Part shown: piece by piece, positions 13,862 to 42,257 of the stretch
Position numbering within the stretch: the stretch's first letter is position 1
Layout of the letters: each line of letters begins with the position of its first letter
Origin: Chloroflexota bacterium
GTDB taxonomy: Bacteria; Chloroflexota; Anaerolineae; Anaerolineales; VGOW01
Assembly: GCA_016197225.1 (NCBI GenBank)
Contig: JACPWC010000101.1
Location: 1-42,645 of the forward strand
Length of the DNA: 42,645 nt
Direction: 5' to 3'
Notes under the pieces: generated by a model
Databases searched by the model: none
Told to the model about the DNA's origin: nothing
The model's input: the letters and a program-made list of their open reading frames with translations, nothing else
Position numbers and translations under genes: made by a program

Positions 13862-14092
13862 ATTGGTGGAATTTAACGGATCGGCCTCGCAGAGAAGAAA
13901 TCCGTTCGCTTCGCGTCCACGCATCCGTCGTTCTTGCCCTAAAACACGGATTGGCGGAATTTAACGGATCGCGTCCGGCAGGCAGGAATCCGTTCGCTTC
14001 GCGTCCACGCATCCGCCGTTCTTTCCTTAGAACACGGATCAGTAGAATTTAACGGATCGATCCGTTAAATTCCACGCATCCGTCGTTCTTCC
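13862..14092. repeat. Array of GATCCGTTAAATTCC / ACGCATCCGTCGTTCTT repeats
   Basis: Three direct copies of GGAATTTAACGGATC-like words occur, each followed by ATCCGTTCGCTTCGCGTCCA and CGCATCCG(T/C)CGTTCTT words. The last copy contains the self-complementary core AACGGATCGATCCGTT. The array fills the gap upstream of the GxxExxY gene and runs into the 3' end of the STAND gene, whose TAA stop is part of the repeat. Related words lie at 13003-13031 and 17073-17122. Confidence 0.75.
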
Positions 14093-16914
14093 ATCTCCCG
14101 CCTCAACTCCTCCAGCCGCGGATGCTGCGGCTCCAGTTCGGTTGCACGGGCCAGGCCGGCCTCGGCGGCGGCGAAGTTGCCCACGTCAATGTTGGCGCTG
14201 GCATAGTTGCGATGCCACATTGCTTTGTTTGGCTGTAACTTGATGGCTTCACCAAAGGCGGCGAGGGCCTCGATGTGTTTCTCTTGTTCACTCAAAACGT
14301 TTCCCAACATATTCCAACAACTGGCAACCTCAGCCCGCAGTTGCTCAGCTTCAAATGGAAGCTGACTCGCGTCAGGGTGGTCAAGCAGGCTTTGCCCGGC
14401 CAGCGCCGCCGCCTGCCATGCTTCGGCGGACTTCGCTTCTTCGGCGCGTTGACGCGCCTCAACAAACGTCCCCAGCGCGCGGCGCAAATCTTCCGGCAAA
14501 GCGGCGAATGCCCGACTTTGCGCCAACACACCAGCCAACCACTCCGGCGGTTCGCCGGCATTCAACTCAGCCCACAATTCTGAGAACAGTTCGCCCGCCT
14601 CTTCGCTGACTCGACGCAGAGTAGTAGTTGCCGCTTGAGAATACGGGGCATGCCCGATCTGATCAAAAAGCGACAAGGCAATATGAGCACAACGCAACGC
14701 TTCCACCAACCGCCCCCGCCGGTCTTCCCCCGGCAAACTCGCCAACTCGCTCAACAGCGTGGCGCGATTGTTCTGCGTCATCGCATAGTCCAGCGGCGCG
14801 GTGTCCGGGCGATAGTGCTTCAACGCTTCGTCGTAGGCCGCCAAACTTTCCACCAACCGCCCCCGCCGGTCTTCCCCCGGCAAACTCGCCAACTCGCTCA
14901 ACCGATTGGCGCGATTGTTCTGCGTCATGGCGCGATTGTTCTGCGTCATCGCATAGGCCAGCGGCGCGGTGTCCGGGCGGCGATACTTCAAGGCGTCGTC
15001 GTAAGCGGCTAAGGCTTCCAACAAGCGCCTCACGCGGCCCTCGTTAGGCAAGGTTGCTAAGCGGCTGAGGGCATTGCCCAGGGTGACCAGCGCGGCGGCT
15101 TTCGCCGCAGGCGCGTCCTCCGCTGTTTGAGTCGCGGCCACCAGGCGGGTCGCCCAGTCGTAGCTGTCTCGAATGAAACCCCAGGCCGCTTGCAGGTTGG
15201 CGGCGTTCCCGGCCAGCGCCTGCGCCAGGCCCGCCTGATGAACGATTGCCCACTCGAAGGCATGGCGCAGTTGGACGTAATCGGGGAGCATGAGGTAGAA
15301 AATCTGGCGGTCGTCGGCGTCGCCCATCAACGCATTGTGAACGGTTGCGTGGCGCTCACGGGCAGCATCTTCTTCACTGGCCCGGCGCAGGAGGGCGAGG
15401 GCGTAGGCGCGGAGGAGGCTGTGTTGTTGGAAGCGGGCCTCACCCCCCGTCCGCTGGCGCGTCTCCTGACCGCCCCTTCGACTGCGCTCCGCTTCGCTCA
15501 GGGTGCGGTCAGGAGAGGGGAGAGACTCAATGCGAGTGAGGAGGCCGCGCTCGACGAGGACGGCCAGTTGGCCTTCGGCTTCTTCGAGGGGGCAGTCCCA
15601 CAACCCGGCGGCGGCCTCAACGCGGAAACTGGCGTCGGGGGCAAACGCGCCCAGCTTGCGGAAGCGCTCGCGGGCAACGTCGGTCAGATCATCGTAGCTG
15701 AACTTCAAGGCAACTTCGACGGCGCTCACCTGCACTTCATCGCCGGGCAGGGTCAGTTCGCCAAAGCCACTGCCCTCGCGCACCTGCCGCGTCATCGCCT
15801 CCACCGCTTTGGGCCAGCCAGCCCGGCCCAGCCGGTCCAAACTACGCCCGGCAATGTCGAGGGCCATGGCGTGGCGGCCCAGGGCCTTCGCCAGTTCAGT
15901 CAACAACTCATCATCGGCATCCGTTGCCTGGTGAGCGCGGGCGCGCAACAGTTTGAGCGCGTCGTCTATGTTCAGCACGTCGAGTGGATAGACTTCGCCG
16001 CGCAGGTCGCGGGCCAGCCGTTCACTGCGGGTGGTGATGAGCACGCAGGCGTCGTTGGGCAGGGCGGCCAGCAACGGGGCAACCGCCTTCAAGTCCCAAA
16101 CGTCATCCAGCACAACCAGCAGTGAGCCGTGCCCGGCCAGCAGGGCCCGCACGGCGTCGGGCGTGAAGTGCTTGCCCTCGGGCAGTGGCCGGTTGCCAAA
16201 GGCGTGTCCGCCCCAGCGATCCAGAATCGGCGCGCTCAGGTCCGGATCGCGAAAGCCCGCGCCCAGCCGCTCGAACAGGACGCCGCCCGCAAACTGCGAC
16301 TCAAGCCCCGCCGCCAGATGCTCGGCCAGCAGAGTCTTGCCCACGCCCGGCGTGCCTTGCACGGCGGCGGCCAGGCCGGTAATAGCCGCTTTTGCGCCAG
16401 GGGCTAGCAGATTGCTCACGGCTTTACGTTCTTCGTCGCGGCCCACCAGCCGGGCGGTGGGGCGCGGCGCGGTCGGGGGCAACCAGTCGCGCGGGCCAAG
16501 CTGGGCCAGGCTGGCGGCGTCAATGAGGAGCGATTTGATCTCCCGAAGCTCGCGGGTTGCTGAGGAGCTCTCACCTTGAACGACTACTTGATCGGCATGT
16601 TCAATGCGCGTGCCGCCGATTTGTTGAGCCTGAACTTTCGCTGCTACTACATTCGTCTGGCCCTCTTGCTCCAAATTTCCTTCAATGTTCAACGTCGGTT
16701 GCGGAGTCGGATTCTTCTCCTTCTTGCCCGTCAGCAGGTCGTAAGCATCCTTGAAACCACTAAAGAACATGAGCACGCCCAACAGGGCAGCCACTGATAA
16801 CTGCAATACGCCGTTAGATGTGTTGCGCCACTCTGGAAAGACAAGCCAACTGACACTGGCGACGATCAACACCAGCACACCGATGGCACTCAGAACGACA
16901 AGATAACGGCGCAT
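14065..16914 (-). CDS. Membrane-anchored STAND (NB-ARC) NTPase with C-terminal TPR repeats
   Basis: The 949-residue protein starts at an ATG (16914) with AGAGGGA upstream; a longer frame to 17010 looks untranslated. Two hydrophobic segments lie at about 4-26 and 36-57, then a polar linker to about 155. The NB-ARC core has a P-loop GTPGVGKT (about 188-195), Walker B LLVVLDDVWD (about 261-270), the arginine-sensor-like VLITTRSERLA and a GLPL-like GRHAMALDIAG. A winged-helix-like region and TPR/helical repeats follow, with near-identical units at about 605-755 and standard TPRs at the C-terminus. STAND proteins are ATP/GTP-driven switches used in signalling, cell death and phage defence. The C-terminal repeats would sense and the N-terminal part would act at the membrane; that role is inferred. 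A palindromic repeat is inserted in frame at 15441-15526. Confidence 0.85.
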   Translation of the reverse strand: MRRYLVVLSAIGVLVLIVASVSWLVFPEWRNTSNGVLQLSVAALLGVLMFFSGFKDAYDLLTGKKEKNPTPQPTLNIEGNLEQEGQTNVVAAKVQAQQIGGTRIEHADQVVVQGESSSATRELREIKSLLIDAASLAQLGPRDWLPPTAPRPTARLVGRDEERKAVSNLLAPGAKAAITGLAAAVQGTPGVGKTLLAEHLAAGLESQFAGGVLFERLGAGFRDPDLSAPILDRWGGHAFGNRPLPEGKHFTPDAVRALLAGHGSLLVVLDDVWDLKAVAPLLAALPNDACVLITTRSERLARDLRGEVYPLDVLNIDDALKLLRARAHQATDADDELLTELAKALGRHAMALDIAGRSLDRLGRAGWPKAVEAMTRQVREGSGFGELTLPGDEVQVSAVEVALKFSYDDLTDVARERFRKLGAFAPDASFRVEAAAGLWDCPLEEAEGQLAVLVERGLLTRIESLPSPDRTLSEAERSRRGGQETRQRTGGEARFQQHSLLRAYALALLRRASEEDAARERHATVHNALMGDADDRQIFYLMLPDYVQLRHAFEWAIVHQAGLAQALAGNAANLQAAWGFIRDSYDWATRLVAATQTAEDAPAAKAAALVTLGNALSRLATLPNEGRVRRLLEALAAYDDALKYRRPDTAPLAYAMTQNNRAMTQNNRANRLSELASLPGEDRRGRLVESLAAYDEALKHYRPDTAPLDYAMTQNNRATLLSELASLPGEDRRGRLVEALRCAHIALSLFDQIGHAPYSQAATTTLRRVSEEAGELFSELWAELNAGEPPEWLAGVLAQSRAFAALPEDLRRALGTFVEARQRAEEAKSAEAWQAAALAGQSLLDHPDASQLPFEAEQLRAEVASCWNMLGNVLSEQEKHIEALAAFGEAIKLQPNKAMWHRNYASANIDVGNFAAAEAGLARATELEPQHPRLEELRREMEERRMRGI
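14701..15000 (-). repeat. Near-identical 147-bp direct repeats encoding TPR units
   Basis: The block starting at 14701 recurs at 14848 with very few changes over its first 50 bases (both encode SELASLPGEDRRGRLVE). A third, more diverged unit follows. A 24-bp internal duplication doubles AMTQNNR. The high DNA identity points to recent expansion within the repeat domain. Confidence 0.75.
15441..15526. repeat. Palindromic repeat inserted in frame in the STAND gene
   Basis: CCTGACCG (15465-15472) and CGGTCAGG (15506-15513) flank a GCCCCTTCGACTGCGCTCCG...CTCAGGG core. Similar cores are, from memory, common intergenic repeats in related genomes. The insertion encodes a low-complexity patch of about 27 residues (SPDRTLSEAERSRRGGQ and onward) between RIES and EARFQQHSLLRAYAL, without breaking the frame. 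Confidence 0.65.
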
Positions 16915-17072
16915 GAGCACGTCCCTCTTAACCCGAATATTTGGCGGCAAGTTTGACCAGAGTTTTGGGACAGGTCGGGCATGAAGGGATTGTATGCTAA
17001 GTGCCAGCAAAAGGAAACTGAACCGTTAGCGTTACTGCTCGAGCCGGGCAGGCGGGCGTGGGTAAGAACAAC

Positions 17073-21674: not shown

Positions 21675-22247
21675 ATGCCCGACGGAGACGCACCCATGCC
21701 TGATCCCTCTGGCTCTGGCCTGATTACACTTGCCCAGCGAGGTGACGTGGACGCGATTGGCACACTGTACGACCAGCATCATCAAGCTCTGTTCAGGTAC
21801 ATCTGGCTCAGAGTGGGAGAGCACGCTCTCGCCGAAGACCTGACCGGCGATGTTTTCGTGCGGATGCTGGCCGCCCTGCCGCGTTACCGTCCCACGCAAG
21901 CCACGTTCCGGGCCTGGCTCTACCGCATTGCCCGCAACTTGCTGATTGATCACTATCGCAAAGAAGGCAACCGGGCTTCGTCGCCGCTCCAGCAGGCCGA
22001 GAACAAAAGCGCCGAAGATGACACGCCGCTGACGCTCTTCGAGCAAAAGCTGACCGTCGAGCGTCTACGCCACGCTCTTTCCACTTTGGAGCAATCTCAG
22101 CGTGAAGTGGTAACGCTGAGATTCTTGAGCGGCCTGTCTTTGCAGGAAACGGCGGTCGTGCTCGGCAAAACCGAAGCCGCCATCAAAGCTCTGCAACATC
22201 GCGGCCTGGCGGCGTTACGCTCGGCCTTAATCCAGGAACACATCTGA
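21675..22247 (+). CDS. ECF-type RNA polymerase sigma factor
   Basis: The 190-residue protein has sigma region 2 (YDQHHQALFRYIWLRVGEHA, EDLTGDVFVRML, FRAWLYRIARNLLIDHYRK; about 32-97) and region 4 (LEQSQREVVTLRFLSGLSLQ, VLGKTEAAIKALQHRGLAAL; about 138-183). It directs RNA polymerase to a small regulon, possibly including its own operon. The ATG at 21675 is used; MPDPS at 21696 is an alternative. The stop overlaps the ATG of the next gene by one base, so the two are coupled in the usual sigma/anti-sigma arrangement. Confidence 0.93.
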   Translation: MPDGDAPMPDPSGSGLITLAQRGDVDAIGTLYDQHHQALFRYIWLRVGEHALAEDLTGDVFVRMLAALPRYRPTQATFRAWLYRIARNLLIDHYRKEGNRASSPLQQAENKSAEDDTPLTLFEQKLTVERLRHALSTLEQSQREVVTLRFLSGLSLQETAVVLGKTEAAIKALQHRGLAALRSALIQEHI

Positions 22248-24514
22248 TGGACGAGTTACACGATCTCTTTCAAGAACGATTGGCCCGACTCGAACAGGGC
22301 GAGCCGCTGGAGGCCTGCCTGGCCGGCCTGCCGGAAGAAGAAGCCTCTTTATTGAAAATGGCCGCCCAACTTTCGACAGTGAACTACCCAGAGCAGGCCA
22401 GTGACAGCGCCCTCGCCCAACGCACAAAGCTGTTGCAGGCGGCGCGGGTGGCAAAGGAGAAAAACGCGATGACAACCAAACCTCGTTGGGTTTTGCCGGC
22501 GGCGCTTAGCGGCGTTGCGGCGTTTGCCTTTATTTGCGTGATCGCTGTGGCCGCAATGGCCGGGTTTGCCTCGTTGAGGCGTTCACCTGCCGCCCCTCGG
22601 CAAGTCGTCATCGTCACCCCTTCGCAAAACGGCGGCCCGACTCAAATCATCCCCATTGCAAATCCACAAAGCGGCACGATGGCAAATGTGCGCGGCAACG
22701 TAAGAGTTCAAGGCGACGATGGCTCGTGGGCGACAATGAGGAACGGGCAAACCGTCACTGCCGGGAAGCGCATTCGCACCGGCCCGCTGTCGAGCGCAAC
22801 GCTGGTCTTCTACGACGGGAGCCAGGCGCGGCTGGGGCCAAACACCGAACTCTGGATCGATTCTCTCAACGCCCAGACGAGCGGCCCGCGCATCATTCAA
22901 CTCACCCAATGGGTCGGCGACACGAAGCACGATGTAGCCCACTCCGCCGACCCGGCCTCTGTCTACGAAGTCCGCACGCCTTCCGGCGTCGGCACGGCCA
23001 AAGGCACATCATTCCAGGTGCTGGTCACTGCCCTCTTCGTCCGCTTCGACGTTGACAAGGGAGCAGTGGCTGTCGCCAACCTGAACATCATCGTGGTCGT
23101 CGTCGCCGGGCAATCCACCACCATTCCTTCGGGTCAACCGCCGGGCGATCCGGTCTTCCGTGTCAGCGGCGAAGGCGAAGTTCTGCAAACCGGCAGTGTC
23201 TGGAACATCGGCGGCCAAACCTTTCTCACCGACGGCAACACCGTCATCGTCGGCAACCCGCAAGTGGGCGACCGCGTCGCCGTCGAAGGCCGCCTTCTGC
23301 CAAATGGCAGTCGCCTCGCCGACCTCATCACCCTCCTGCATCGCGCCTCGAAAAACACTTTCTCGTTTAGCGGCGTCGTAGAGTCCATCGGCGGCGACTC
23401 GTGGACGATCTCTGGCCGGGAAGTTCGGGTTGATGAGCTGACGACTATTGAGGACGGGATCGTGGTCGGGGACGCCGTCGAGGTCAGGGGCGGCATTGCT
23501 CAGGACGGAACCTTCTGGGCCGGCGAAATTCGCAAACGAGCCGAGGCCGAACAGCCGTTTGAATTTACTGGCGTGATTGACGCCATCGCCGACTCGGGCT
23601 GGACGATCTCCGGCGTCACTATCAAGGTGGACGGCAACACCGAAATTGATGAGGGACTCGAAACCGGCGACGTGGTCAAAGTCGAGGGCCACATTCAGGC
23701 CGACGGTTCGTGGCTGGCAGAATCAATCACGCTTGCCGATGAGGACGAGCACAAGTTTGAGATCACCGGGCCGGTGGAGAGCATGGATCCGTGGAAGGTG
23801 GCCGGAGTGGAATTCGAGACGGCGGCCTGGACAGAGATTGACGAAAACATCAAGGTTGGTGACCGGGTGAAAGTGGAGGGCCGGATTCAGGAAGATGGAA
23901 CTTGGGTAGCCGATGAAATCAAACTGATTGAAGCCAGCCAGGCCTTGCGATTTGAGTTTGTAGGTAAAGTGACCAGCACCGACCCGTGGGTGATCGGCGG
24001 CGTCACGCTCGCCACCGACGAGAACACCGAGATTGCGAATGATATTGAGGTCGGCGATTTTGTGAGGGTCAAGGGACATATTCTGCCCGATGGCGCTCTG
24101 CTGGCCGATGACATCAGCCCGCTTGAAGACCCTGCTGACTGCTTTGACACGGTCGTCGTCGTCAGCAATGTCACCGCCGAGAAAATTATCCTGCTCAACG
24201 GGCAAACCATCAAGCTAAAGGACATTGACCTCGAAGGCGATGTCAAAGTCGCCAGCATAATAATCGTCCATGCCTGCGTCGGCAAAGACGGCAAGATCGT
24301 CATCGTGAGCGTCATCGTCATCTTCCAACTGGATAAGCTTCCTGATGTGATTGTGATTCGACCGCCGGATGATCCTCGCGACAACAACAATAACAACAAC
24401 GACAACAATGGCGGCAACAACGACAACAATAATTGTCAGGATGGTGATGATCACGATCATGGCAAGGGAAACGACTGCCACAAGCACGGAGGCGATGATG
24501 GCGATGATGACTAA
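22247..24514 (+). CDS. Membrane FecR-domain protein with five DUF5666-like repeats, probable anti-sigma partner
   Basis: The 755-residue protein has a cytosolic helical N-terminus (1-75, DELHDLFQERLARLEQGE) without the zinc anti-sigma motif, and one TM helix (about 82-104). A FecR domain follows (about 144-260, MANVRGNVRV to GTAKGTSFQV). Five repeats of about 65 residues then occur (305-630), each with the pattern W-x-(I/V)-x-G...(V)GD-x-V-x-V-x-G...DG...A-x-x-I, as in DUF5666. A last beta-rich segment and a tail of Asn/Asp with His and two Cys end the protein. Overlap with the sigma gene supports an anti-sigma role, with the outside part as sensor. The ligand is unknown; the acidic/His tail might bind metal. 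Both points are inference. Confidence 0.8.
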   Translation: MDELHDLFQERLARLEQGEPLEACLAGLPEEEASLLKMAAQLSTVNYPEQASDSALAQRTKLLQAARVAKEKNAMTTKPRWVLPAALSGVAAFAFICVIAVAAMAGFASLRRSPAAPRQVVIVTPSQNGGPTQIIPIANPQSGTMANVRGNVRVQGDDGSWATMRNGQTVTAGKRIRTGPLSSATLVFYDGSQARLGPNTELWIDSLNAQTSGPRIIQLTQWVGDTKHDVAHSADPASVYEVRTPSGVGTAKGTSFQVLVTALFVRFDVDKGAVAVANLNIIVVVVAGQSTTIPSGQPPGDPVFRVSGEGEVLQTGSVWNIGGQTFLTDGNTVIVGNPQVGDRVAVEGRLLPNGSRLADLITLLHRASKNTFSFSGVVESIGGDSWTISGREVRVDELTTIEDGIVVGDAVEVRGGIAQDGTFWAGEIRKRAEAEQPFEFTGVIDAIADSGWTISGVTIKVDGNTEIDEGLETGDVVKVEGHIQADGSWLAESITLADEDEHKFEITGPVESMDPWKVAGVEFETAAWTEIDENIKVGDRVKVEGRIQEDGTWVADEIKLIEASQALRFEFVGKVTSTDPWVIGGVTLATDENTEIANDIEVGDFVRVKGHILPDGALLADDISPLEDPADCFDTVVVVSNVTAEKIILLNGQTIKLKDIDLEGDVKVASIIIVHACVGKDGKIVIVSVIVIFQLDKLPDVIVIRPPDDPRDNNNNNNDNNGGNNDNNNCQDGDDHDHGKGNDCHKHGGDDGDDD

Positions 24515-30576: not shown

Positions 30577-31023
30577 ATGTTTCGACGTCCCGGGGGAAAA
30601 GACTCTTCACAATCGGACTCTTCGCTAATTCCAGCTTTTTCCAATAGCCACAAGATTCAAACTGTTATTGGCCCTGGCTCGACTCTCAACGGCACTATCG
30701 TGGCCGAGGGCGGTGCGCGCATTGACGGCTCATTCGACGGCAATCTTTCGGTCAAAGGGCCGCTGGTGATCGGCGAAGGCGCTCGAGTGGTGGCCGACAT
30801 TTCTGCCGAGAGCGTTTCGGTGGCCGGCTCGGTCAAAGGCAATATCACTGCCAAACGTGTAGACATCATGCGCACGGGCCGAATCTACGGCGACTTGATC
30901 ACCGGCGCATTCACGACTGAAGAAGGCGGCTTCCTGCGCGGGCAAGTGCGTATGACGGACGGCACAACGCCCGAAGAAGAAACGCCTATCTTTGGCGCCC
31001 GCCCCCTGGCTACCGCATCTTAG
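30577..31023 (+). CDS. Bactofilin-type polymer-forming cytoskeletal protein
   Basis: The 148-residue protein has flexible polar ends around the bactofilin beta-helix core. The core shows GPGSTLNGTIVAEGGARIDG, FDGNLSVKGPLVIGEGARV, ADISAESVSVAGSVKGNI and AKRVDIMRTGRIYGDLITGA. Bactofilins self-assemble into filaments without nucleotides and organise cell shape or surface machinery at the membrane. The ATG at 30577 follows a good GAGGAG ribosome binding site; the frame upstream to a TTG at 30544 lies in the leader. It has its own promoter and terminator. Confidence 0.93.
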   Translation: MFRRPGGKDSSQSDSSLIPAFSNSHKIQTVIGPGSTLNGTIVAEGGARIDGSFDGNLSVKGPLVIGEGARVVADISAESVSVAGSVKGNITAKRVDIMRTGRIYGDLITGAFTTEEGGFLRGQVRMTDGTTPEEETPIFGARPLATAS

Positions 31024-31046
31024 CCAGGTTTTCTCTCCCGCTTTTC

Positions 31047-31077
31047 AAAACGTGTCTGCAACCGCAGGCACGTTTTT
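31047..31077 (+). terminator. Intrinsic terminator after the bactofilin gene
   Basis: AACGTGTCTGC and GCAGGCACGTT pair around AACC with one mismatch, followed by TTTTT. Confidence 0.85.
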
Positions 31078-31206
31078 TATTTGTGGGCCGTTGACACAAA
31101 GTCTTATCCGGGTCAAAGAGTGCTTGCCGCAACCTTGCAAACCGCAATCTTGTCGGCGCTTCGGGTGTAGCATGAAGGTGGCACCTCTTGCCAGGCCTCC
31201 GGCGAG

Positions 31207-31235
31207 TTGCCCTATTTTTCAATCTATCCTATACT
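31207..31235 (+). promoter_or_regulatory. Promoter of the FecR/Calx-beta protein gene
   Basis: TTGCCC (31207-31212) and TATACT (31230-31235) are 17 bases apart, 47 bases before the ATG. Confidence 0.5.
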
Positions 31236-31282
31236 TTCGGCCATCACCACACTTTTTGTGGAATCTTGTTCGGAGAGTTTCA

Positions 31283-34096
31283 ATGTCTTACACCGACGAA
31301 ATTCAAACGCCTGAGGAAGCCCAGCGACAGCGCCAAACTTTGATTATTGTCGCCATCATCGTAGCAATCGTGCTGATTGGCGGCTGTGCTGGCATCTTCT
31401 TTCTGCTTGGCAATCGGCCAGCGCCCACCCAAGGGCAGACGATAGTGGCCGTCACCAGCCTGCCTACGTTGACGCCGTCGCTCACACCCATTCCGTCCGA
31501 CACTCTCGAACCGACGCCTGGAGATGGCATCGGCGGCGGCGGTGACGGGGCCACTGAAACCCCCTCCGCCACCAACACCGACGTTCCCTCCATCCGCTTT
31601 GCCACTCTATCCGAAATTCGTGGCTCGGTTCTGATCAAAACTCCGGCCAACAGCGACTGGGTCACCGTCACCAGCGAATTAACCATCCCTGAAGGCACGA
31701 CCATCCTCACCAGCGAAGGCAGTAGCGTCAAGCTGACCACAACCGAAGGCACAACCATCCGGGTCAGTTCGCAGACTCAAATTGTTCTGGCCGAACTGCG
31801 CGGCACCACCCTTGATCCGCTCACCAAACTGAAGATTGACTTTGGCAAAGTGTGGGCGATTGTGGGCAACGACCTGGGGTTGGGGAAGTTTGAAGTGGAG
31901 ACGCCGATTGGCCTGGCCTCTCTGCTGGAAGGCTCGTCGTTCATGGGGGTTGAGCATAACTCCACCCAGATTCTGGACATTATCACCTGTCTCGACGGCA
32001 AATGCCGTTACGCCAACAGTGTCGGCGTCATTGACCTGGCTACCCTCCAACAGGTGATCTCCGACGGCGGCGGCGTGCCCGGCCCGGTAGACCCGATGGA
32101 CCCCAACCAGGTGGATAGCTGGTCGCCGACCCGCGTGCCGGAAGTGGTCACTTTGACTCCGACCATTACCCCGACTTTCACGCCCTCGGTGACGCGCACG
32201 CCCACCAACACTCGCACGCCGGTTAACACGCCAAACTTCACGGCCACGCAAGGCGCGGCCGGCACCAACAGCGCGCAAACTTCCACTGCCGCCAGCAACC
32301 AACTAACCCAAACCGTTTCCGCTATCAACCTGACGGCCACAGCCGGGGCCGGTTCGACGAGCGGGGCAAAAACGGCAACAGCGGCTGTCGCCACGGCGAA
32401 TCAAAATGCCACCAATATTTCTGGAACGGCTAATGCTAATGCTACTAATCAGTTCTTTACGGCCACAGCTTTTGCAGTAAATATAAGACTGACTAACGAG
32501 GCCGCCACTGCACGCGCCGCCGCCAGCCAGTTCGCCCTCCAAACGGCTTTTGCCCAGCAAACCGAAACCGCCTTCGCCAGCGCCAATCCCTCAAACACGC
32601 CAATTTCCACGCCAACAAAGACCGCCACTCCCTTGCCTGCTTTCTCATTTAGCACCGCGACCTACTCGGCGGGCGAGAGCGCAGGCAAGGTAACGATCAC
32701 TATTAATCTCAACGCCACACTTTCCACCTTTGTCTCAGTGCAACTAGACACGGCTATCACCGGTAGCAGCTCGCTCGACGCCACCTCTGGTGCGGACTTC
32801 ACGCCCATTGTCAGCCAGATCATCACCTTCAATCCCAACCAGACAAGCAGAAACATCGACATCACCCTCATTGACGACGGCCTCACCGAGTCGAACGAGA
32901 CGTTCCAAGTTCTTCTTACAAACCCTGGTCCTCAAACTGCCCTCGGCACTCCGTCCGGCGCCAACGTCACCATCAACGACAGCCCGCCGCCAGTACTCGC
33001 CTTCTCCACTCCTGCCTACACCGCGCCAGAAGGCAACGCCGGAACGACCAATGCGGCCATCATCGTCAATCTGAGCCGCGCTTACGCCAACACCACCACA
33101 GTGACAGTAGACTACAGCTCATTTGCGGGCGGCACAGCCACTGGCGGCGGGGCCTGCGGCGGTGGTGTGGATTACGTGACGCCGGCCGGAACCCTGACCT
33201 TTGTGCCCGGAGTCCTCACCCAAACCTTCAATCTGGCTGTCTGCGGCGACACACTCAACGAACAGGACGAGACCGTCTTCCTCCAACTCACTAACGAGAC
33301 CAACACTGCAGCAGGTGGTGTGGATACTGCTACGCTCACGATCACCAATGACGACCTGCAGCCCACTGTCAACATCACGCCCGGCACCGTTGCCGTGGTT
33401 GAACCGGGCGGCCTGGGGGCAACGTCCATTCTGACCTTTGATGTCACTCTGTCTACCGCCTCCGGCCAAACGATTACGGTGGATTACGCTACCGTTGAAG
33501 GCTCTGGCGACGGCTTTGCCAAAGACGGCGCTGACTATGTCGGCAAGACGACCACCACTCTCACTTTCCCGCCAAACACTGTCGGCCCACAGACCATTTC
33601 CATCACCATCAAGGGCGATGTGCTGAACGAAATGAACGAAAGCTTCGACCTGGTGCTCTCAAATGCAATCAAGGCCACTCTGCTGGCCACGCCCAATGAC
33701 CGGTCAACCGCCACCATCACCGACGACGGCGACCCGGCGCCGGTGGCCAGCTTCAGCCTCTCACCCTACACCAAATCCGAAGGCAACAGCGGCACTTCAA
33801 CAGCGACGATCTCCGTCAACCTTTCGCGCCAGTCCGGGCAGACTATTATCCTGGGTTACTCGACGACACCGGGTGGCAGTTGCGGCGCGAACGTGGCCTC
33901 CGCCGGAAGCGATTACGTGACGGCCAACGGCCAACTTACTTACAACCCGGGTGATCTGTCCGCGAGCTTCGCTATCACTATTAATGGTGACGCAGTCGTG
34001 GAACCAGACGAGTGTTTGACCTTGAACCTGAGCGCGGTGGCCGGAACCGTCACCATCACCGGGCCGTCGGAACTGTGGATCATGAACGACGATTGA
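31283..34096 (+). CDS. Membrane-anchored surface protein with FecR domain and Calx-beta repeats
   Basis: The 937-residue protein has a cytosolic tail, one TM helix (about 18-42, LIIVAIIVAIVLIGGCAGIF) and a Thr/Pro linker. A FecR-like domain follows (about 105-260, SEIRGSVLIKTPANSDW to SFMGVEHNSTQILDI). Next is a long Thr/Ala/Asn-rich region (about 300-450) and four Calx-beta-type domains of roughly 110 residues. These show the pattern GxxxxTATI-x-VNLSR...V-x-YST...DY...G-x-LTF-x-PG, then I-x-GD-x-x-x-E-x-x-E-x-x-x-L-x-L. Such acidic loops often bind Ca2+. A structural or adhesive role outside the cell is inferred. The ATG at 31283 follows CGGAGAG; upstream codons are intergenic. The next gene is a paralogue. 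Confidence 0.85.
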   Translation: MSYTDEIQTPEEAQRQRQTLIIVAIIVAIVLIGGCAGIFFLLGNRPAPTQGQTIVAVTSLPTLTPSLTPIPSDTLEPTPGDGIGGGGDGATETPSATNTDVPSIRFATLSEIRGSVLIKTPANSDWVTVTSELTIPEGTTILTSEGSSVKLTTTEGTTIRVSSQTQIVLAELRGTTLDPLTKLKIDFGKVWAIVGNDLGLGKFEVETPIGLASLLEGSSFMGVEHNSTQILDIITCLDGKCRYANSVGVIDLATLQQVISDGGGVPGPVDPMDPNQVDSWSPTRVPEVVTLTPTITPTFTPSVTRTPTNTRTPVNTPNFTATQGAAGTNSAQTSTAASNQLTQTVSAINLTATAGAGSTSGAKTATAAVATANQNATNISGTANANATNQFFTATAFAVNIRLTNEAATARAAASQFALQTAFAQQTETAFASANPSNTPISTPTKTATPLPAFSFSTATYSAGESAGKVTITINLNATLSTFVSVQLDTAITGSSSLDATSGADFTPIVSQIITFNPNQTSRNIDITLIDDGLTESNETFQVLLTNPGPQTALGTPSGANVTINDSPPPVLAFSTPAYTAPEGNAGTTNAAIIVNLSRAYANTTTVTVDYSSFAGGTATGGGACGGGVDYVTPAGTLTFVPGVLTQTFNLAVCGDTLNEQDETVFLQLTNETNTAAGGVDTATLTITNDDLQPTVNITPGTVAVVEPGGLGATSILTFDVTLSTASGQTITVDYATVEGSGDGFAKDGADYVGKTTTTLTFPPNTVGPQTISITIKGDVLNEMNESFDLVLSNAIKATLLATPNDRSTATITDDGDPAPVASFSLSPYTKSEGNSGTSTATISVNLSRQSGQTIILGYSTTPGGSCGANVASAGSDYVTANGQLTYNPGDLSASFAITINGDAVVEPDECLTLNLSAVAGTVTITGPSELWIMNDD

Positions 34097-34203
34097 GATA
34101 AGCCAGTGACTATTCAAACGTTCGGGCGGCAGTACAACTGCGGGCGAACCTGAAGCAACCACCGAGACGGCAGTTTCCCAGAGTCGTCTCTTGTGCTAGA
34201 CTA

Positions 34204-34245
34204 GACGCCGGGCCTTTGCGGAATCAAACGCAAAAGCCCGGCGTC
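34204..34245 (+). promoter_or_regulatory. Long hairpin just upstream of the second FecR gene
   Basis: GACGCCGGGCCTTTGCG (34204-34220) pairs with CGCAAAAGCCCGGCGTC (34229-34245), 17 bp with one mismatch and an 8-base loop. It ends 22 bases before the ATG. There is no T-run, so it looks more like a leader or mRNA-processing hairpin than a terminator. Confidence 0.55.
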
Positions 34246-34267
34246 CCCGATTAATCAAGGGTTTCGT

Positions 34268-36124
34268 ATGGCCAACAAAGACGACGACTTCCTGTCCAAA
34301 CTGCGCGGCTCGGGCGACGAACCTGAGCCGGAAGAAGAAGGCCCGAAGCGTGGCTCCTTCGATCCCTTCAATTTAGATCCGCGTTTGATGATCGGCGTGG
34401 CCATCGCGGCCATGACGCTGGTGATGCTCGTCGGGTGTGGCGTCATTTATTTCGTCGCCGTCCGCAACCAGACTCCGCAACCGACTCAGGCGACGTTGAT
34501 CGTGGATGTCACCAGCCTGCCGACGGCGACCCCGTCGGCGACCCCGCCTCTCACCGAGACGCCGTCTCCCACCGTCACCCTCGTTCCCACCGAAACCGCC
34601 ACCGAACCGCCGCCGGTTCGTTATGCCTCGCTCTCAGAAATCAAGGGCAATGTTCAGGTCAAAGCGCCGGGCGCCGAGTCGTGGTCTCAAGTCCAGACCG
34701 ATCTCACCATCGGCCCCGGAACCACCGTGCTCACCAGCGAAAACAGTTCGGTGAAGATCACGTTGAGCGAGGGCGGCATCGTCCGCCTGAGTTCGCAGAC
34801 GCAATTGACGCTCGCCGACTTGAGCGGCCAGGCGAATGCGCCGGTCACCAAATTGGCGCTCGATTTCGGCAAGCTGTGGGCGATGATTTCAAACCTGGGC
34901 AGTGGCACGTTTGAAGTGCAAATGCCGATCGGCGTGGGCGCAGTGCGCGGCTCATTCATGAGCGCCGAGCATAACTCGACGAACAAGCTGGAGATCGTCA
35001 CCTGTCTCGAAGGCCGTTGCAGTTATCGCAACGCCAACGGTTCGCAAGACCTGACGACCGGCCAGCAAACCGAGTCGCAAAATGGAAATGCGCCCAGCCC
35101 GGCCCACCCGATTGATACCATCCAACTGGCCGACTGGTCGCTGACCAAGATTCCGGAAGTGATCACCCTGACGCCGACGATCACGCCGACGTTCACCCGC
35201 ACCGCCACTTTCACGCGCACGGCCACGTTCACTCCGTCCAACACCCGCACGCCCGGCCCGACCTTCACGCCTTCCAAGACGGCAACCCGGACGGCGACGG
35301 CGACCGCCACCGGCACAGCCACTGCAACTGCCACTGCTACCCAAACATTCACGCCGTCCAGCACGGCCACGCGCACGAATACACCGACGGCTTCCAGCAC
35401 GCCGACTCGCACCGCCACCGGCACGGCGACAAACACAGCTACAGCCACTGCCACAGCAACGAATACGCCTACAGCCACGCCCACCGCTACTGCCACACCG
35501 CTCGTTGTCAGCTTTGATGTGACTGGCATTGCGAATCCGACCTTTGCCGGCGCGCCCCACAGTGTCACCGTCACCGCCAAAGATGTGTCGGGCGCCCCCC
35601 TCACCACCTATGCTGGAACTATCCACTTTACTTCCACTGACTCGCAAGCCATCCTGCCGCTCGATTACATCTTTGTCGCGGCAGACAACGGCGTTCACAC
35701 GTTTACCGGCATCGAATTGAGGACGCCCGGCCTGGCCCACGAGGTGAAGGTTAACGACACACTTTATGTCGCTATCACCGGCGCTCAGACCGGCATCGTC
35801 GTCAACCCCGGCCCGGCGGTGAGGCTTGAGATCACCGGATTGCCCATCTCGACGAATCGCAACATTCCCAACAGTTTCACCGTCACTGCTAAAGACACGT
35901 TTGGTAATACGGATGTGAATTACACCGGCACGGTTCGCTTCACGACGACTGATCTCGACCCGGGCGTAGTGCTCCCACCTGATTACACGTTCATCGCCAG
36001 CGATGCCGGCGTCCATCTCTTCACGCCCGGCGTCACCTTCCAAACGTCAGGCTTACAAACCATCACCGCCACCGACACCGTCACTCCGGCTGTTAACGGC
36101 AGTAAACAAGTGAACGTAGTGTAG
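34268..36124 (+). CDS. Membrane-anchored FecR-domain surface protein, paralogue of the preceding gene
   Basis: The 618-residue protein repeats the upstream architecture: an acidic cytosolic tail, a TM helix (about 40-62), a Thr/Pro linker and a FecR-like domain (about 118-260, [20 protein letters not shown] to [20 protein letters not shown]). A long TATATAT-rich stalk follows (about 300-415), and then two filamin/Ig-like domains ([20 protein letters not shown] and [20 protein letters not shown]). The FecR part is clearly homologous to that of the preceding protein. The stalk would carry the Ig pair away from the membrane. A ribosome binding site AAGGG precedes the ATG. Ligand is unknown. Confidence 0.85.
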
Positions 36125-37781: not shown

Positions 37782-39326
37782 ATGATGACCGAAGATAAAG
37801 AACAGGCGCTGGAACTGCTCATCCGGGCCAAGTATCCCATCATCTACATCGTCTCTGCCGAAGAGCGGCGAGTGGAGGAACTTTTGCGGAGCGTGGCCGC
37901 CCGGCGGCACAAGCAGTTGTTCGGCTGGACGCTCACCGAAGGTGTGGCCGACATCTCCACCCTCAAGCCCATCGTCGTGGACGGCGGCGCGCGCGAGCCT
38001 TTGCAGGTGCTGGACGTGATCGCCAGTTCGCGCGAGTCGGCCATCTTCGTCCTCAAAGACTTTCACCCCTTTCTCGACAACGCCCGCCTGCCGCTCGAAA
38101 ACGCCGTCGTCGTCCGCAAACTACGTGACCTGATCGGCCACCTCAAGGAGAGTCCCAAGACCCTCGTCCTGCTCTCGCCGGTGCTGGCCTACCCGCCCGA
38201 ACTGGAGAAGGACATCACCGTCCTTGACTACTCACTGCCCGCCGCCGACGAACTGGCCGGCGCGCTGGATCGTGTTCTGCGTTCGGCGCGATTCCTGGGC
38301 GAGCAGGGGCTGGAGTTGGACGAAGAACAGCGAGCGCAGATCGTTCGCGCCGCGCAGGGCCTCACCTGCACCGAAGCCGAAAACGTCTTCGCCAAGTCGC
38401 TCGTCATGCACCGGCGGCTCGACCTGGACGTGATCATCGCCGAGAAACAGCACCTCATCCAAAAATCCAAAGTCATGGAGTTCTTCGCCGCGCCGGAAGA
38501 TTTTGAAGACGTGGGCGGCATGAGCGATCTCAAAGAGTGGCTTCGCAAGCGCGGCAACGCCTTCAGCGAACGGGCGCGGCGCTTTGGCCTGCCCGAGCCG
38601 CGCGGCCTGCTCCTGCTCGGCGTGTCGGGCAGTGGCAAGAGCCTCATCGCCAAAGCCATCGCCAACCAGTGGCACCTGCCGCTCCTGCGGCTCGACATGG
38701 GCCGCGTCTTCGGCGAACTGGTGGGCGCTTCGGAACACAATATGCGTCAGGCGTTGCGACTGGCCGAGAATGTTTCGCCGGCAGTGGTTTGGTTGGACGA
38801 AATTGATAAGGGGTTGGCCGGCACGGCTTCGTCGGGCCGCTCGGACGCCGGAACCGCCGCCCGCGTGTTTGGCACATTCCTTACCTGGATGCAGGAGAAG
38901 AAGTCGCCCGTGTTCACCGTGGCCACCGCCAACGACATCTCGGCTCTGCCGCCGGAGACTCTGCGGCGCGGGCGCTTCGACGAAATCTTTTTTGTGGACT
39001 TGCCGACTCTGCCTGAGCGCCAAGAGATTTGGGCCATTCATTTTCGCAAGCGCAACCGCCAGCCTGAGAACTTCGATCTACGCCAACTGGCCGCCGAGAG
39101 CGACGGCTTCAGCGGAGCCGAGATCGAGCAGGTCATCATCGCCGCCATGTACGACGCTTTCGACGAAGGCCATGATCTTGAAATGGGCGGCCTGCTGAAT
39201 AACATCAGCCAGACCGTGCCGCTCTCGCAAACCATGCGCGACCAAGTGGAAGCCTTACGCAGCTGGGGCCGCCGCCACGCCCGGCCTGCCGGTGGCGCTG
39301 TCACTGCCGCCGTGCCTGAACGGTAA
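37782..39326 (+). CDS. Ycf46-like AAA ATPase
   Basis: The 514-residue protein has an N-terminal alpha/beta domain (about 1-240, starting with [20 protein letters not shown]) typical of Ycf46-type proteins. A single AAA module follows: Walker A GVSGSGKS (about 279-286), Walker B VVWLDEID (about 335-342), sensor 1 TVATAND, the arginine-finger region [11 protein letters not shown], and a lid with [20 protein letters not shown]. FtsH-type protease motifs are absent. Ycf46 proteins of cyanobacteria and plastids are soluble ATPases of poorly known role. It starts a plus-strand run with a membrane protein and a two-TM Ig protein, so a membrane-remodelling function is possible but unproven. The adjacent second ATG (37785) is an alternative start. 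Confidence 0.88.
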
Positions 39327-39332
39327 GAGAAT

Positions 39333-39413
39333 TGAACCGCAAAGGCGCAAAGAACGCGAAGAAATTAGAAAACAACTTTGCGCCCTTCGCGTCTTCGCGG
39401 TGAATTTGTTGAC
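39333..39413. repeat. Intergenic palindrome, CCGCAAAGGCGCAAAGAACGC family
   Basis: CCGCAAAGGCGCAAAGAACG is mirrored by TTTGCGCCCTTCGCGTCTTC and GCGG. It is the sister of the copy at 18015-18093 and fills the gap between the AAA gene and the next gene. Confidence 0.72.
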
Positions 39414-39421
39414 GTGTAACT

Positions 39422-40474
39422 ATGAGACTCTTCTTCCGCCGCCTGTGGGCGCGCATTGTTTTTCAATATCAGACTCGCCGCGACGTGGTCGAGCGCGGCG
39501 TGTCGGCTGTTGGGCTGGCTGCCCTGTCGCAAGTTCTCTATCAGGCCCGGCCCGCCTACCCTTCCGACTGGTTGCCTTTTATCCTCATCGCCCTCTTCTG
39601 CGCCGCGCTCTACAACACAACGCTTGGCTACTTTTTAGCCGTGGCCCTGGCCATGTGGCCGCTGTGGACTCTCTCGCCCTACCTGGCCAGCCTCTTTCTC
39701 GCCGTCGCCGTCCTGGCCCAGTCGCCCATTCTGCGCCGCCTGCCCTGGACTCTGCTGATCACCGCCACGCCCATGCTGGCCTGGAATCTCATCTCCGGCA
39801 TTGGCCCGCTGATGGCCGGGATGACGCTGGGGCCGGGCGGCGGCTTCTGGGTGGGCGCGCTGTCGGCCCTGTGGCTCAAAGTGGCGGGCGGCATGGCCGG
39901 CCATTCCACCGGCCTGCTGGCCCTGCATCAACAGCCCATCTTCTTCAACGCTATCAGCGCCCGCTACACCGGCCAGAACTCGCTCGACACCCTAAAGCTC
40001 ATCGTCGAGCCGTTCAACACCGGGCGTTCCAGCCTGTTGCTTTTAGATGTGCTTCAAGTATTATTGTGGGGGCTGGCCGGGGCGCTCGTCGGCTGGCTCA
40101 GGCGACAATTGTGGGCCGAGCGCCGCCCGTGGTTGAACCTGATCGTCTCCCTGCTCGCCGGCGCGCTCCTCATCTGGTTCAGCATCTTCGCTCTCCCCAT
40201 CTGGTTACAATTGGGGCCGCTCGCGCTTTTGTGGAGTGACCCCTGGTTGTCATTAGGGATTCTGGCGGCGGCGCTAATCGCCGGAGCGACGTATGCGGCG
40301 CGCTACATTTTGAATCGACCGGCGCGACGATCCAAAATGCGAATCCTGCCGGTGAAGTTTCAGCCGTCATCGGTTGGGGGAGCGGAGTCCGATCCCGCCT
40401 CTCAAACAGTGACGGCCAACCCGTCAATCTCAAACGACAAAGACGACGACGTCATCATGCTCGAACTCGACTGA
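39422..40474 (+). CDS. Polytopic membrane protein of unknown function
   Basis: The 350-residue protein has a basic N-terminus (RLFFRRLWARIVFQYQTRRD) and about eight hydrophobic segments between 25 and 295. It ends in a soluble C-terminal tail with an acidic end (SNDKDDDVIMLELD). Gly-rich loops such as LMAGMTLGPGGGFWVGAL and AGGMAGHSTGLLALHQQ occur mid-protein. I do not recognise the family. Its position between the Ycf46-like ATPase and the Ig/FlgD-like protein (28-base gap) suggests the three act together at the membrane. The acidic tail could be a docking site for the ATPase, which is speculation. Confidence 0.8.
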   Translation: MRLFFRRLWARIVFQYQTRRDVVERGVSAVGLAALSQVLYQARPAYPSDWLPFILIALFCAALYNTTLGYFLAVALAMWPLWTLSPYLASLFLAVAVLAQSPILRRLPWTLLITATPMLAWNLISGIGPLMAGMTLGPGGGFWVGALSALWLKVAGGMAGHSTGLLALHQQPIFFNAISARYTGQNSLDTLKLIVEPFNTGRSSLLLLDVLQVLLWGLAGALVGWLRRQLWAERRPWLNLIVSLLAGALLIWFSIFALPIWLQLGPLALLWSDPWLSLGILAAALIAGATYAARYILNRPARRSKMRILPVKFQPSSVGGAESDPASQTVTANPSISNDKDDDVIMLELD

Positions 40475-40501
40475 TCACTATTCACTGTTCACTCTTCACT
40501 G
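40474..40501. repeat. CACTATTCACTGTTCACTCTTCACTG repeat
   Basis: Same word family as 4318-4388. It fills the 28-base gap between two genes and ends one base before the next ATG, leaving no ribosome binding site. Confidence 0.65.
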
Positions 40502-40502
40502 A

Positions 40503-42257
40503 ATGTCCGACCTGTACACCCGCCCCGAATCGGGCCGAAGCCGCCAGCGTCGGCGGCCACGAACAACTCTCAGCCTGCCCCCGGCACTCTACGTCGTCGC
40601 CGCTGTGGGCGTGTTGGCGTTGCTGTTCGTCATGTTCCCTCTCGACTGGCTGCGCAAACCCAAGCTCACGCTCACAACCGATCAGACTCTCTTCTCGCCC
40701 AACCGTGACGGCACGCTCGACGAGATCGCCATCTTCTACAATTTGTCCGAGAAGGCGACGGTGAGCGCCGAGGTGTTGAACGGGGCCGGGCAGACCGTGC
40801 GCACCCTGATGAAAGAACTGCCGCAGACGGCCGGTCAACATTCGGCGGCCTGGGACGGGCGCGACCAGGGCGGCAACACCGTGGCCGACGGCAACTACAC
40901 AATCAAAGTGGCGGCGGCTGGCACGCTACAAAGTGTGGATCAAACAACGTCGGTGGCGGTGGACAACACGCCGCCCTCGCTCGTCATTGCCAACTTCCCG
41001 CCCACGCAAACCACGCGCACTTCTACATTCCAAATTGAAGGCTCCACATCCTCGGATGCGACGGTGTTCGTCAACAACGATCCGGCGCCGGTGCTGGTGG
41101 ACGCCACCGGCACGTTCCGCGTCACCCGCCAACTCGTCGAAGGCTCGAACATCGTCTCCGTGCGCGCCTCGGACTCGGCCGGCAACACCAATCAGGTTGA
41201 GTCGGACGTGGTTCTGCGAACCGCGCCGCCGGGCATTGTGCTGGCCGCGCCCGCCGCCGACACCTGGTTCAACACCAACATTGTGGCCGTGAACGGCCAG
41301 GTTCCCGCCGACGTGGCTGTAACGGTGAACGGCAAACCGGCAGAGGTGGATGCCAGCGGCAACTTCTCACTCGACCTGCTTCTGCAAGAAGGCGACAACG
41401 TCATTCGCGTGGTCGCCACCGACCCGGTGGGCAACGCGGCCACCGAGGAGCGCGTGATTCACGTCCGCACGCAAGGCCCGACGATCACCGTTGCCAACGT
41501 GCCCGACGGCCTGATTGTAGACACGCCCACCCTGCGCGTGAGCGGCAAGGTGGAGCCGGGGTCGGTGTTGTCGCTCAACGGCGGTAGTATCCCAACCGAC
41601 AATCAAGGCGCGTTCAGCACCGTCCTCACTTTGCAGGAAGGCAACAACCTGCTCACCCTCAACGCCACCGACCGCGCCGGAAACACAACCTCGCTTCAGC
41701 GCGTGGTGGTGTTCGAAGCCGCCCCGCCCCCGACGGTGCTCCCGGGCCTGCCGGAAATTCCGTTGGCCGATTGGGCGCTCCCGGCTGGCATTGCCGGCGC
41801 GGCGGCGCTGGCGATTGCCGGTTGGTTCCTGGTCGGCGCGTTCCGGCGGCCCATTCGGCTGGGCCTGGCGGTGGATCGTCCCACCTTCTACCCCAACCAT
41901 CCCGACGACGCCAGCCTGCTCACCATCCGCCTTGACGTGTCGCGCAACGCCCGCGTTGCCATCTACGTCAACGACGAGATGGGGCGGCCCGTGACCACGC
42001 TGGTGGAGAACCGCCGCTACAGCGCCGGAATCCACACCCGGCTGTGGGATGGCCGCAACAGCTTCCGCCACCTTCTCCCCGCCGGCCTCTACCAAATAGA
42101 GGCCACCGCCCACTCCACATTAAGTTCGGTGAGCAGTGCCGTGTGGGTGACGATGGACACCACGCCGGTCACGCTCGGCGTACCTGCCGCCCGCCCCGAA
42201 ACCGAAACCCGCCGCCGCTATTTTGACGATGACGAGCATGTGGCGGATGCGGGGTGA
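40503..42257 (+). CDS. Two-TM protein with Ig-like and FlgD-like domains
   Basis: The 584-residue protein has a basic cytosolic start and TM1 (about 26-48). A FlgD-like domain follows (about 53-155, FSPNRDGTLDEIAIFYNLSE, HSAAWDGRDQGGNTVADGNY). Next are three Big/glucodextranase-B-like Ig repeats (about 157-405), each with the pattern DxxGNFSxxLxLxEGxNxIxVxAxDxxGN. TM2 (about 423-446) is followed by a second FlgD-like domain (about 450-560, TRLWDGRNSFRHLLPAGLYQ). With two TM helices, the Ig part would be outside and the second FlgD-like domain inside, unless TM2 is not a true span. Flagellar genes are absent, so the fold is borrowed. The role is unknown; the operon context is the AAA ATPase. 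Confidence 0.8.
   Translation: MSDLYTRPESGRSRQRRRPRTTLSLPPALYVVAAVGVLALLFVMFPLDWLRKPKLTLTTDQTLFSPNRDGTLDEIAIFYNLSEKATVSAEVLNGAGQTVRTLMKELPQTAGQHSAAWDGRDQGGNTVADGNYTIKVAAAGTLQSVDQTTSVAVDNTPPSLVIANFPPTQTTRTSTFQIEGSTSSDATVFVNNDPAPVLVDATGTFRVTRQLVEGSNIVSVRASDSAGNTNQVESDVVLRTAPPGIVLAAPAADTWFNTNIVAVNGQVPADVAVTVNGKPAEVDASGNFSLDLLLQEGDNVIRVVATDPVGNAATEERVIHVRTQGPTITVANVPDGLIVDTPTLRVSGKVEPGSVLSLNGGSIPTDNQGAFSTVLTLQEGNNLLTLNATDRAGNTTSLQRVVVFEAAPPPTVLPGLPEIPLADWALPAGIAGAAALAIAGWFLVGAFRRPIRLGLAVDRPTFYPNHPDDASLLTIRLDVSRNARVAIYVNDEMGRPVTTLVENRRYSAGIHTRLWDGRNSFRHLLPAGLYQIEATAHSTLSSVSSAVWVTMDTTPVTLGVPAARPETETRRRYFDDDEHVADAG

Follow-up and report, generated by a model that had tools for sequence, protein, structure and literature searches.

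The window, a contig of 42,645 nucleotides (JACPWC010000101.1) from the Chloroflexota bacterium assembly GCA_016197225.1, carries three consecutive plus-strand genes, here called A, B and C, which encode an AAA+ ATPase, a polytopic membrane protein and a membrane protein with immunoglobulin-like (Ig) and FlgD-like domains. Together they represent a real, compact and widespread module (the cassette), in which recognisable folds are found in a new and apparently undescribed combination. That A, B and C are parts of one system is well supported, because the gene order proved to be conserved in relatives. The window is one contig of a genome of 4.8 Mb in 126 contigs. A first-pass annotation had proposed that the three genes encode a membrane-spanning machine unlike any known system; the spacing on which it built, with gaps of 95 and 28 bases on one strand, is confirmed by the open reading frame (ORF) coordinates. 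B and C matched no PADLOC model and A matched only generic AAA profiles, in agreement with the view that no known system has this composition, and no paper on the module was found in listings (rather than full texts) of the openly licensed literature for Ycf46, DUF1257/Ycf35 and the gene combination. What the analysis shows is linkage, gene order, a single ATPase clade, predicted folds and a conserved tail in B; a hexameric A, the docking of the tail, the topology, the clients and a physical complex of the products are what we infer. The S-component-like fold of B, the p97-like double AAA architecture of A and the C-terminal motif of B go beyond what the first-pass annotation had noticed.

Public genomes were scanned with an alignment of the ATPase, and the best 80 of 323 loci were examined. 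The ATPases of 37 of these 80 loci group with those of the cassette, and at 28 of the 37 the genes A, B and C follow each other in this order on one strand; a lack of conserved gene order in relatives was the outcome which the first-pass annotation had named as speaking against its proposal. In the other nine the contig continues for no more than 1195 bases beyond A, and B is still visible in five of them. Neither B nor C was found at any of the 43 loci whose ATPase falls outside the cassette group; at 37 of these, 2 kb or more of sequence follows downstream. The spacing of A and B ranges from an overlap to a gap of 285 bases, with L072 (839 bases) as the exception. In a quick tree of 101 sequences the 38 cassette ATPases, including that of the window, form one clade (support 99 in the Shimodaira-Hasegawa-like approximate likelihood ratio test). 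The identity of the proteins of the window to those of 12 other genomes is 59-63% for A and 31-38% for C. One cassette-type ATPase (L063) is encoded on a contig filed under Candidatus Bathyarchaeota and nests among Chloroflexota in the tree; this contig is probably mis-binned.

When 101 genomes (its own included) were searched with B, it was found at 34-36% identity in three others, in each case preceded by A and followed by C. Across 400 genomes of the order, a profile search gave B at E ≤ 0.001 in 14; the match in G215 (E 2.7e-4) was marginal with no cassette around it and was dropped, which leaves 13 genomes with and 387 of the 400 without a strong match. Regarding the 12 relatives among the 13, ten have complete A, B and C on one contig, whereas C is cut by a contig end in L009 and the cassette is split over two contigs in G340. 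When the same 400 genomes were searched with A (limit E ≤ 1e-60), 13 ATPases scored above 900 bits, in exactly the 13 genomes with a strong B match, and 35 further ATPases scored 242-549 bits. Because the order is conserved and B and the cassette-type A occur in the same 13 of 400 genomes, the association is not due to chance. (Note that the best 80 loci lie partly on the same contigs as the 400-genome set, so that the two counts overlap.) Among 15 stretches compared, additional neighbours were common only within two same-genus pairs, and the window genes upstream of A had no match in the stretches of 14 relatives. Of 346 genomes from the class 30 have B, as do two of 301 in a sample of the phylum, both from the same class as the window; a single-sequence scan of genome contigs with B yielded no match, and plasmid sequences likewise none. 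The hosts of the ATPase loci are, as filed, mainly metagenome-assembled genomes of Anaerolineae, Ardenticatenia and Thermoflexia, groups which include filamentous members.

The ATPase A has no hydrophobic span and consists of a degenerate first AAA-like domain and an active-type second one. Walker A (G280-S287), D339-E340, R395 and R398 are invariant at the positions counted in all 13 aligned rows, and a P-loop was present in the first 230 residues of 0 of 101 homologues and further on in 101 of 101. In a predicted model of the relative L066, in which A is fused to its B, residues 1-228 show an AAA-like order of strands and helices. The model aligns with Rix7, p97, NVL and CDC48 from residues 1-5 to residues 399-494, with the two halves corresponding to D1 and D2 (for Rix7 7t0v_F, Z 17.1, root-mean-square deviation (rmsd) 4.6, 372 aligned); at the top of its structure list, FtsH and Vps4 match as single AAA domains. 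Residue 1 of the model corresponds approximately to residue 205-210 of p97, which leaves no p97 N-domain ahead of D1. Judged by this model, A resembles a double ring of the p97 type that lacks the N-domain and has an inactive first tier; by analogy with its family it would be hexameric. The earlier label 'Ycf46-like' is backed by architecture and gene context rather than by comparison with a named Ycf46 record, and no curated Ycf46 model appeared in the Pfam or NCBIfam output for A. Of the 38 cassette ATPases, at least two of which are cut by contig ends, 19 finish with [RK]x[LIMV][EQ][LIFMV], although one of the 19 matches poorly. A of the window does not have this ending; it lacks the GLRxxEL-type tail of about half of its relatives, and an insertion in the A-B gap may have removed this tail. 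A 30-base part of the spacer in that gap occurs as a single copy within the window.

Relatives of A in other phyla are 49-56% identical to A of the window, and those on cyanobacterial plasmids 38-45%. On three cyanobacterial plasmids the relatives are annotated only as 'AAA family ATPase' and lie near DUF1257 and DUF2997 genes; on one, genes for GrpE, Hsp70, DUF1257, DUF2997 and the ATPase form one run with two other genes. At several loci of other phyla the ATPase gene adjoins one for DUF1257, a family that each of the five neighbours tested matched. A passage of one preprint states that Ycf35 contains DUF1257 (PMC13131479), and part of another paper places Ycf46 genes in cyanobacteria and red-algal plastids (PMC5940233). 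DUF1257, a typical partner of Ycf46-type ATPases, was found in 0 of the 13 cassette genomes, with a control match in Synechococcus elongatus. Since related ATPases often sit with DUF1257 and Hsp70-like protein-handling genes and the cassette genomes lack DUF1257, we read the Ycf46-like ATPase as chaperone-like and modular, with partners that can be exchanged; in the cassette it is as though the partner role had passed to B and C. In 20 further loci of the same order (L147-L166), simple sequence marks indicated a DUF1257-like gene in 11 and an Hsp70-like gene in 13; WD40, HEAT and radical-SAM proteins are also encoded near the Ycf46-like ATPases there, which we read as a second modular system. 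On the Treponema succinifaciens plasmid pTRESU01 (L167, 5001-8596), a 48% identical ATPase gene directly precedes a 'phage baseplate assembly protein V' gene and is perhaps linked to a contractile injection system.

Short terminal motifs were counted in the neighbours of such ATPases. An N-terminal motif was noticed in 44 loci (L074-L117), and two patterns were fixed before 20 further loci were viewed; the four patterns of the later counts were all chosen after viewing at least one set and are post hoc. N-terminal R[FW]xx[LV]E occurred in 17 of 155 neighbours versus 0 of 152 controls in the 44 loci, and in 0 of 89 versus 0 of 66 in the 20. Its bearers, which include NHL, zinc-ribbon-transmembrane (TM) and TPR proteins, were seen at L079, L088, L090, L092, L094, L099, L101, L103, L105, L106, L107, L108, L109, L112, L114, L116 and L117. 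C-terminal I-x-[LIV]-[DE], the core of the tail of B, was picked after the 20-locus set had been viewed and occurred there in 13 of 89 neighbours versus 1 of 66 controls, as against 0 of 155 versus 2 of 152 in the 44 loci; with a preceding acidic residue the counts were 9 of 89 versus 0 of 66 and 0 of 155 versus 0 of 152, respectively. The fourth pattern, [LIM]E[FLI] in the last six residues, was found in 3 of 155 versus 0 of 152 (44 loci) and in 6 of 89 versus 0 of 66 (20 loci). The 13 C-terminal matches comprise eight large proteins (715-885 aa) with DIEIE- or DILLD-like ends, WD40 models being matched in all five of them that were tested, three Hsp70-like proteins and two others; because these matches are not independent, p-values would overstate the motif. 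One cyanobacterial plasmid neighbour ends in FDIDIEDS.

The membrane protein B matched no family in Pfam (PF12822 included), reached only a sub-threshold score in NCBIfam (14.1 bits versus 24) and had no sequence match in the PDB. Its AlphaFold2 model, built from 28 sequences, has a mean predicted local distance difference test (pLDDT) score of 87.9, with block means of 47-68 at residues 301-350. Foldseek gave no hit to this model with E below 0.001. With VIA-align, nine chains of energy-coupling factor (ECF) transporter S components took ranks 1-9 (Z 12.9-8.3, 144-171 aligned, rmsd 3.6-5.4) ahead of the first other row at Z 7.6; this is the result of a second-look aligner applied to a predicted model, and helical bundles can reach Z of about 13 through common arrangement. 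Since the list is an unbroken one of a single family, aligned over most of the chain, residues 98-300 are held with fairly high confidence to adopt the predicted six-helix S-component fold, preceded by extra N-terminal helices. Helix 133-149 carries a G-x3-G-x3-G-x3-G-x3-A pattern, in which G133, G137 and G141 are each conserved in 28 of 28 rows, G145 in 27 and A149 in 26.

The least variable of the stretches of B that were compared is its end. In all 28 rows the last 12 residues contain the pattern [LIV]Ix[LI][ED][LIM]D, in which I345 and D350 never vary, although these rows are only 27-42% identical to B of the window. The rows are the window and 27 of the 33 loci with a B match, those omitted being five cut by contig ends and L039, whose frame is broken. 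Mean entropy is 2.53 bits at residues 301-340, the most variable of four stretches, and 1.05 bits at residues 341-350, the least variable. Because a peptide is fixed at the end of a free and variable linker, a protein-binding site is to be expected, and A is the obvious docking candidate as the most conserved partner. A contact between the ATPase and the acidic tail, suggested earlier, has become likelier through this conservation, although a fused one-to-one model placed no tail on the ATPase.

In C, Pfam recognised Glucodextran_B (three stretches), FlgD_ig and Big_13, and the first FlgD_ig copy is a clear match (E 2.5e-14). Two hydrophobic spans are present in 12 of 12 aligned C proteins (the first split in one row). 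The N-terminus is positive (+4 to +10 in 12 of 12) and span 2 is followed by mostly polar or basic residues, which suggests that both ends lie inside and that the first FlgD_ig domain and the three Ig-like repeats lie outside. Residues 448-560 have the lowest mean entropy (1.35 bits) of eight stretches of C compared. The description in the first-pass annotation, a two-TM protein with Ig repeats outside and a FlgD-like domain apparently inside, holds for the spans and domains; the FlgD-like domain after span 2, which scores below its family cut-off, lies probably inside. The cut-offs of the NCBIfam equivalogs for flagellar FlgD were not reached by C, which shares only the FlgD_ig domain.

The explanation we prefer, tentatively and at somewhat less than an even chance, is a membrane-anchored AAA+ unfoldase, in which the tail of B anchors A, C provides the link to the outside and A threads or remodels a client protein. 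A would form a ring at the inner face of the membrane and draw on ATP, in the second of its AAA domains, for pulling on a protein or unfolding it. B would sit in the membrane through its S-component-like helical domain and hold A by its long flexible cytosolic tail, with the hydrophobic-acidic peptide at the end as the docking point. C would cross the membrane twice, with FlgD and Ig domains outside and a FlgD-like sandwich inside, and might connect the outside with the ATPase or report between them. The work done would most likely be the remodelling or extraction of membrane or envelope proteins, as by p97 with Derlin or by FtsH with its membrane partners.

Several observations weigh against this explanation. 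An HExxH protease motif is absent from A of the window (a stray HExxH string occurs in one of 13 aligned A rows and in two of 101 homologues). When A and B of one relative were modelled with AlphaFold2 (23 rows) as one chain, read through the single stop between them, no docking of the tail was seen: pLDDT was 31-44 in the tail of B and below 50 in the tail of A itself, and the predicted template modelling score was 0.49. Because one protomer lacks inter-subunit sites, this result counts only weakly against docking. The two terminal patterns fixed in advance were flagged in no neighbour shown of the 20 further loci. The second FlgD_ig copy of C scores 24.9 bits versus a Pfam cut-off of 27. An ORF of 257 aa lies between A and B in L072, and in L039 the frame of B is broken and stops without the motif, the motif string being found in another frame just before C. 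The cassette is absent from four genomes of the same genus, of which two have a completeness of at least 92%, and is therefore dispensable.

Ranking next after the unfoldase, and rated unlikely, is a transceptor-type sensor, in which B or C would respond to a ligand or to stress in the envelope, with the tail of B passing the signal to A for action on cytosolic targets. The fold of B with extra N-terminal helices and a C-terminal extension recalls the layout of 5TMR kinases as outlined in a section of PMC11109136, and the Ig ectodomain of C would suit such a role; no signalling domain was found in A, B or C with Pfam, however, and a ligand site is likewise without support. Rather less likely still is a bacterial counterpart of p97-Derlin, in which B with its S-component fold would recruit the AAA+ ring by the C-terminal peptide for protein extraction or translocation, with the Ig protein as outside arm. 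The cassette would then be a branch of a wider, modular Ycf46-type family, in which WD40 and NHL propellers, TPR and zinc-ribbon-TM proteins and, in this case, a membrane domain serve as interchangeable adaptors that share a type of terminal docking peptide.

It is improbable that B is a substrate-specific S component which uses a general ECF module for small-molecule uptake, with A and C as regulators or merely co-inherited. The fold match to nine S-component chains speaks for such a role, and each of the 13 cassette genomes has EcfT/CbiQ genes, though on a different contig from the cassette. However, the AXXXA motif, which according to a passage of PMC11109136 joins S components to EcfT, is not conserved in B (3 of 28 rows at the best aligned position of helix 1, 8 of 28 anywhere in residues 99-124), which makes ECF uptake unlikely. 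PF12822 gave no match and hhalign of B against an S-component alignment gave a probability of 0.3, though a comparison of true S-fold families (S components with MreD) fails likewise; moreover, B has extra N-terminal helices, a conserved tail and an AAA+ gene alongside in the loci examined. An MreCD-like role in morphogenesis or surface-structure assembly, with B as MreD-like scaffold, C as bitopic partner and A as motor, is held to be equally improbable. The hosts belong mainly to groups with filamentous members, and MreD has the S-component fold according to part of PMC11109136; against this, hhalign of B with the MreD of relatives gave a probability of 1.5, a separate MreD is encoded on another contig of the genome of the window, and 387 of 400 genomes of the order have no strong B match. 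As AXXXA is not conserved and the profiles do not match, B is no proven ECF subunit or MreD. Least probable is a role in anti-phage defence or conflict with an AAA+ protein at its centre, like that of IetAS or the ternary systems, for which the patchy distribution, the match of IetA profiles in PADLOC to A (over the AAA domain only, E 4.7e-23) and the inactive first AAA domain also described for FtsH ternary systems in part of PMC7159879 can be cited, but no protease, nuclease, MoxR or vWA domain was found in A, B and C with Pfam and B and C had no PADLOC match.

Table 1. Features of the A-B-C module, in positions of the window
Feature	Position	Strand	Basis
Gene A, p97/Ycf46-like AAA+ ATPase, 514 aa	37782..39326	+	ORF; PF00004 E 1.6e-27
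A residues 1-228, degenerate first AAA-like domain without P-loop	37782..38465	+	Model of a relative; motif count
A residues 232-496, active-type AAA+ domain	38475..39269	+	Pfam, model alignment, motif count
Repeat-like spacer in A-B gap	39334..39400	.	Sequence reading
Gene B, polytopic membrane protein, 350 aa, no known family	39422..40474	+	ORF; Pfam and NCBIfam searches; AlphaFold2
B residues 98-300, S-component-like domain	39713..40321	+	VIA-align, AlphaFold2 model
B residues 301-350, disordered linker and tail, presumably cytosolic	40322..40471	+	pLDDT, entropy
B residues 343-350 DVIMLELD, conserved C-terminal motif, putative docking peptide	40448..40471	+	Alignment
Gene C, two-TM protein with Ig and FlgD-like domains, 584 aa	40503..42257	+	ORF; Pfam; hydrophobicity
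C residues 29-47, transmembrane span 1	40587..40643	+	Hydrophobicity
C residues 73-408, predicted outside part, FlgD_ig then three Glucodextran_B/Ig-like repeats	40719..41726	+	Pfam; charges
C residues 429-447, transmembrane span 2	41787..41843	+	Hydrophobicity
C residues 471-538, second FlgD_ig-like domain, presumably cytosolic	41913..42116	+	PF13860 E 2e-5

Elsewhere in the window, positions 21675-24514 and 30992-36124 hold the genes of three FecR-domain proteins, at 22247-24514 (with DUF5666 repeats), 30992-34096 (with Calx-beta) and 34268-36124, the first preceded by the gene of an extracytoplasmic-function (ECF-type) sigma factor. A protein of 981 aa with NB-ARC and TPR domains is encoded on the minus strand at 14065-17010.

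To our knowledge, no mechanism is known for Ycf46, which the title of a 2015 paper by Jiang et al. reportedly ties to CO2 utilisation. In the A-B-C module, Ycf46-type ATPases can be studied in compact form, since the membrane partner is defined and the peptide directly testable. If it is true that terminal peptides dock Ycf46-type ATPases, a testable rule for unknown operons in several phyla would follow. With the module, the S-component fold, which a 2024 survey ties to transport, sensor kinases and MreD (PMC11109136), would gain an AAA+ partner as well.

Among known systems, MreC-MreD resembles the module in combining a polytopic S-component-like protein with a protein that has a large outside part, but B has no profile match to MreD and C differs by two TM spans and Ig/FlgD domains. 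The FtsH ternary (MoxR-vWA) systems likewise have an inactive first and an active second AAA domain in one protein, whereas no MoxR or vWA domain is found in the conserved A, B and C; unlike the FtsH protease, A of the window has no C-terminal HExxH protease domain. A serine protease partner as in IetAS was not found: the IetA profiles cover only the AAA domain of A, and B and C have no PADLOC match. To ECF S components and 5TMR sensor kinases, the latter of which, according to a section of PMC11109136, add one N-terminal helix and a cytosolic output to the S-component fold, the likeness is the predicted fold of B residues 98-300; B differs from them in having neither a conserved AXXXA motif nor a profile match, and in its extra N-terminal helices, conserved tail and AAA+ neighbour. 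Ycf46-type ATPases with DUF1257 (Ycf35-type) partners show the same ATPase architecture as A, whereas the cassette genomes have, instead of DUF1257, an S-component-like membrane protein and a two-TM Ig protein. Compared with p97, A has no N-domain before D1 and no P-loop in D1, and compared with Derlin, B matches S components and not rhomboids in VIA-align. In its D1-D2 arrangement of AAA domains, however, A is like p97/Cdc48, and B is like Derlin-1 in being a polytopic partner with a short cytosolic C-terminal motif, the SHP box in the tail of Derlin-1 being reported in part of PMC4177747 to bind the p97 homologue. Of the working systems known, p97 with Derlin-1 is the nearest analogue of A and B.

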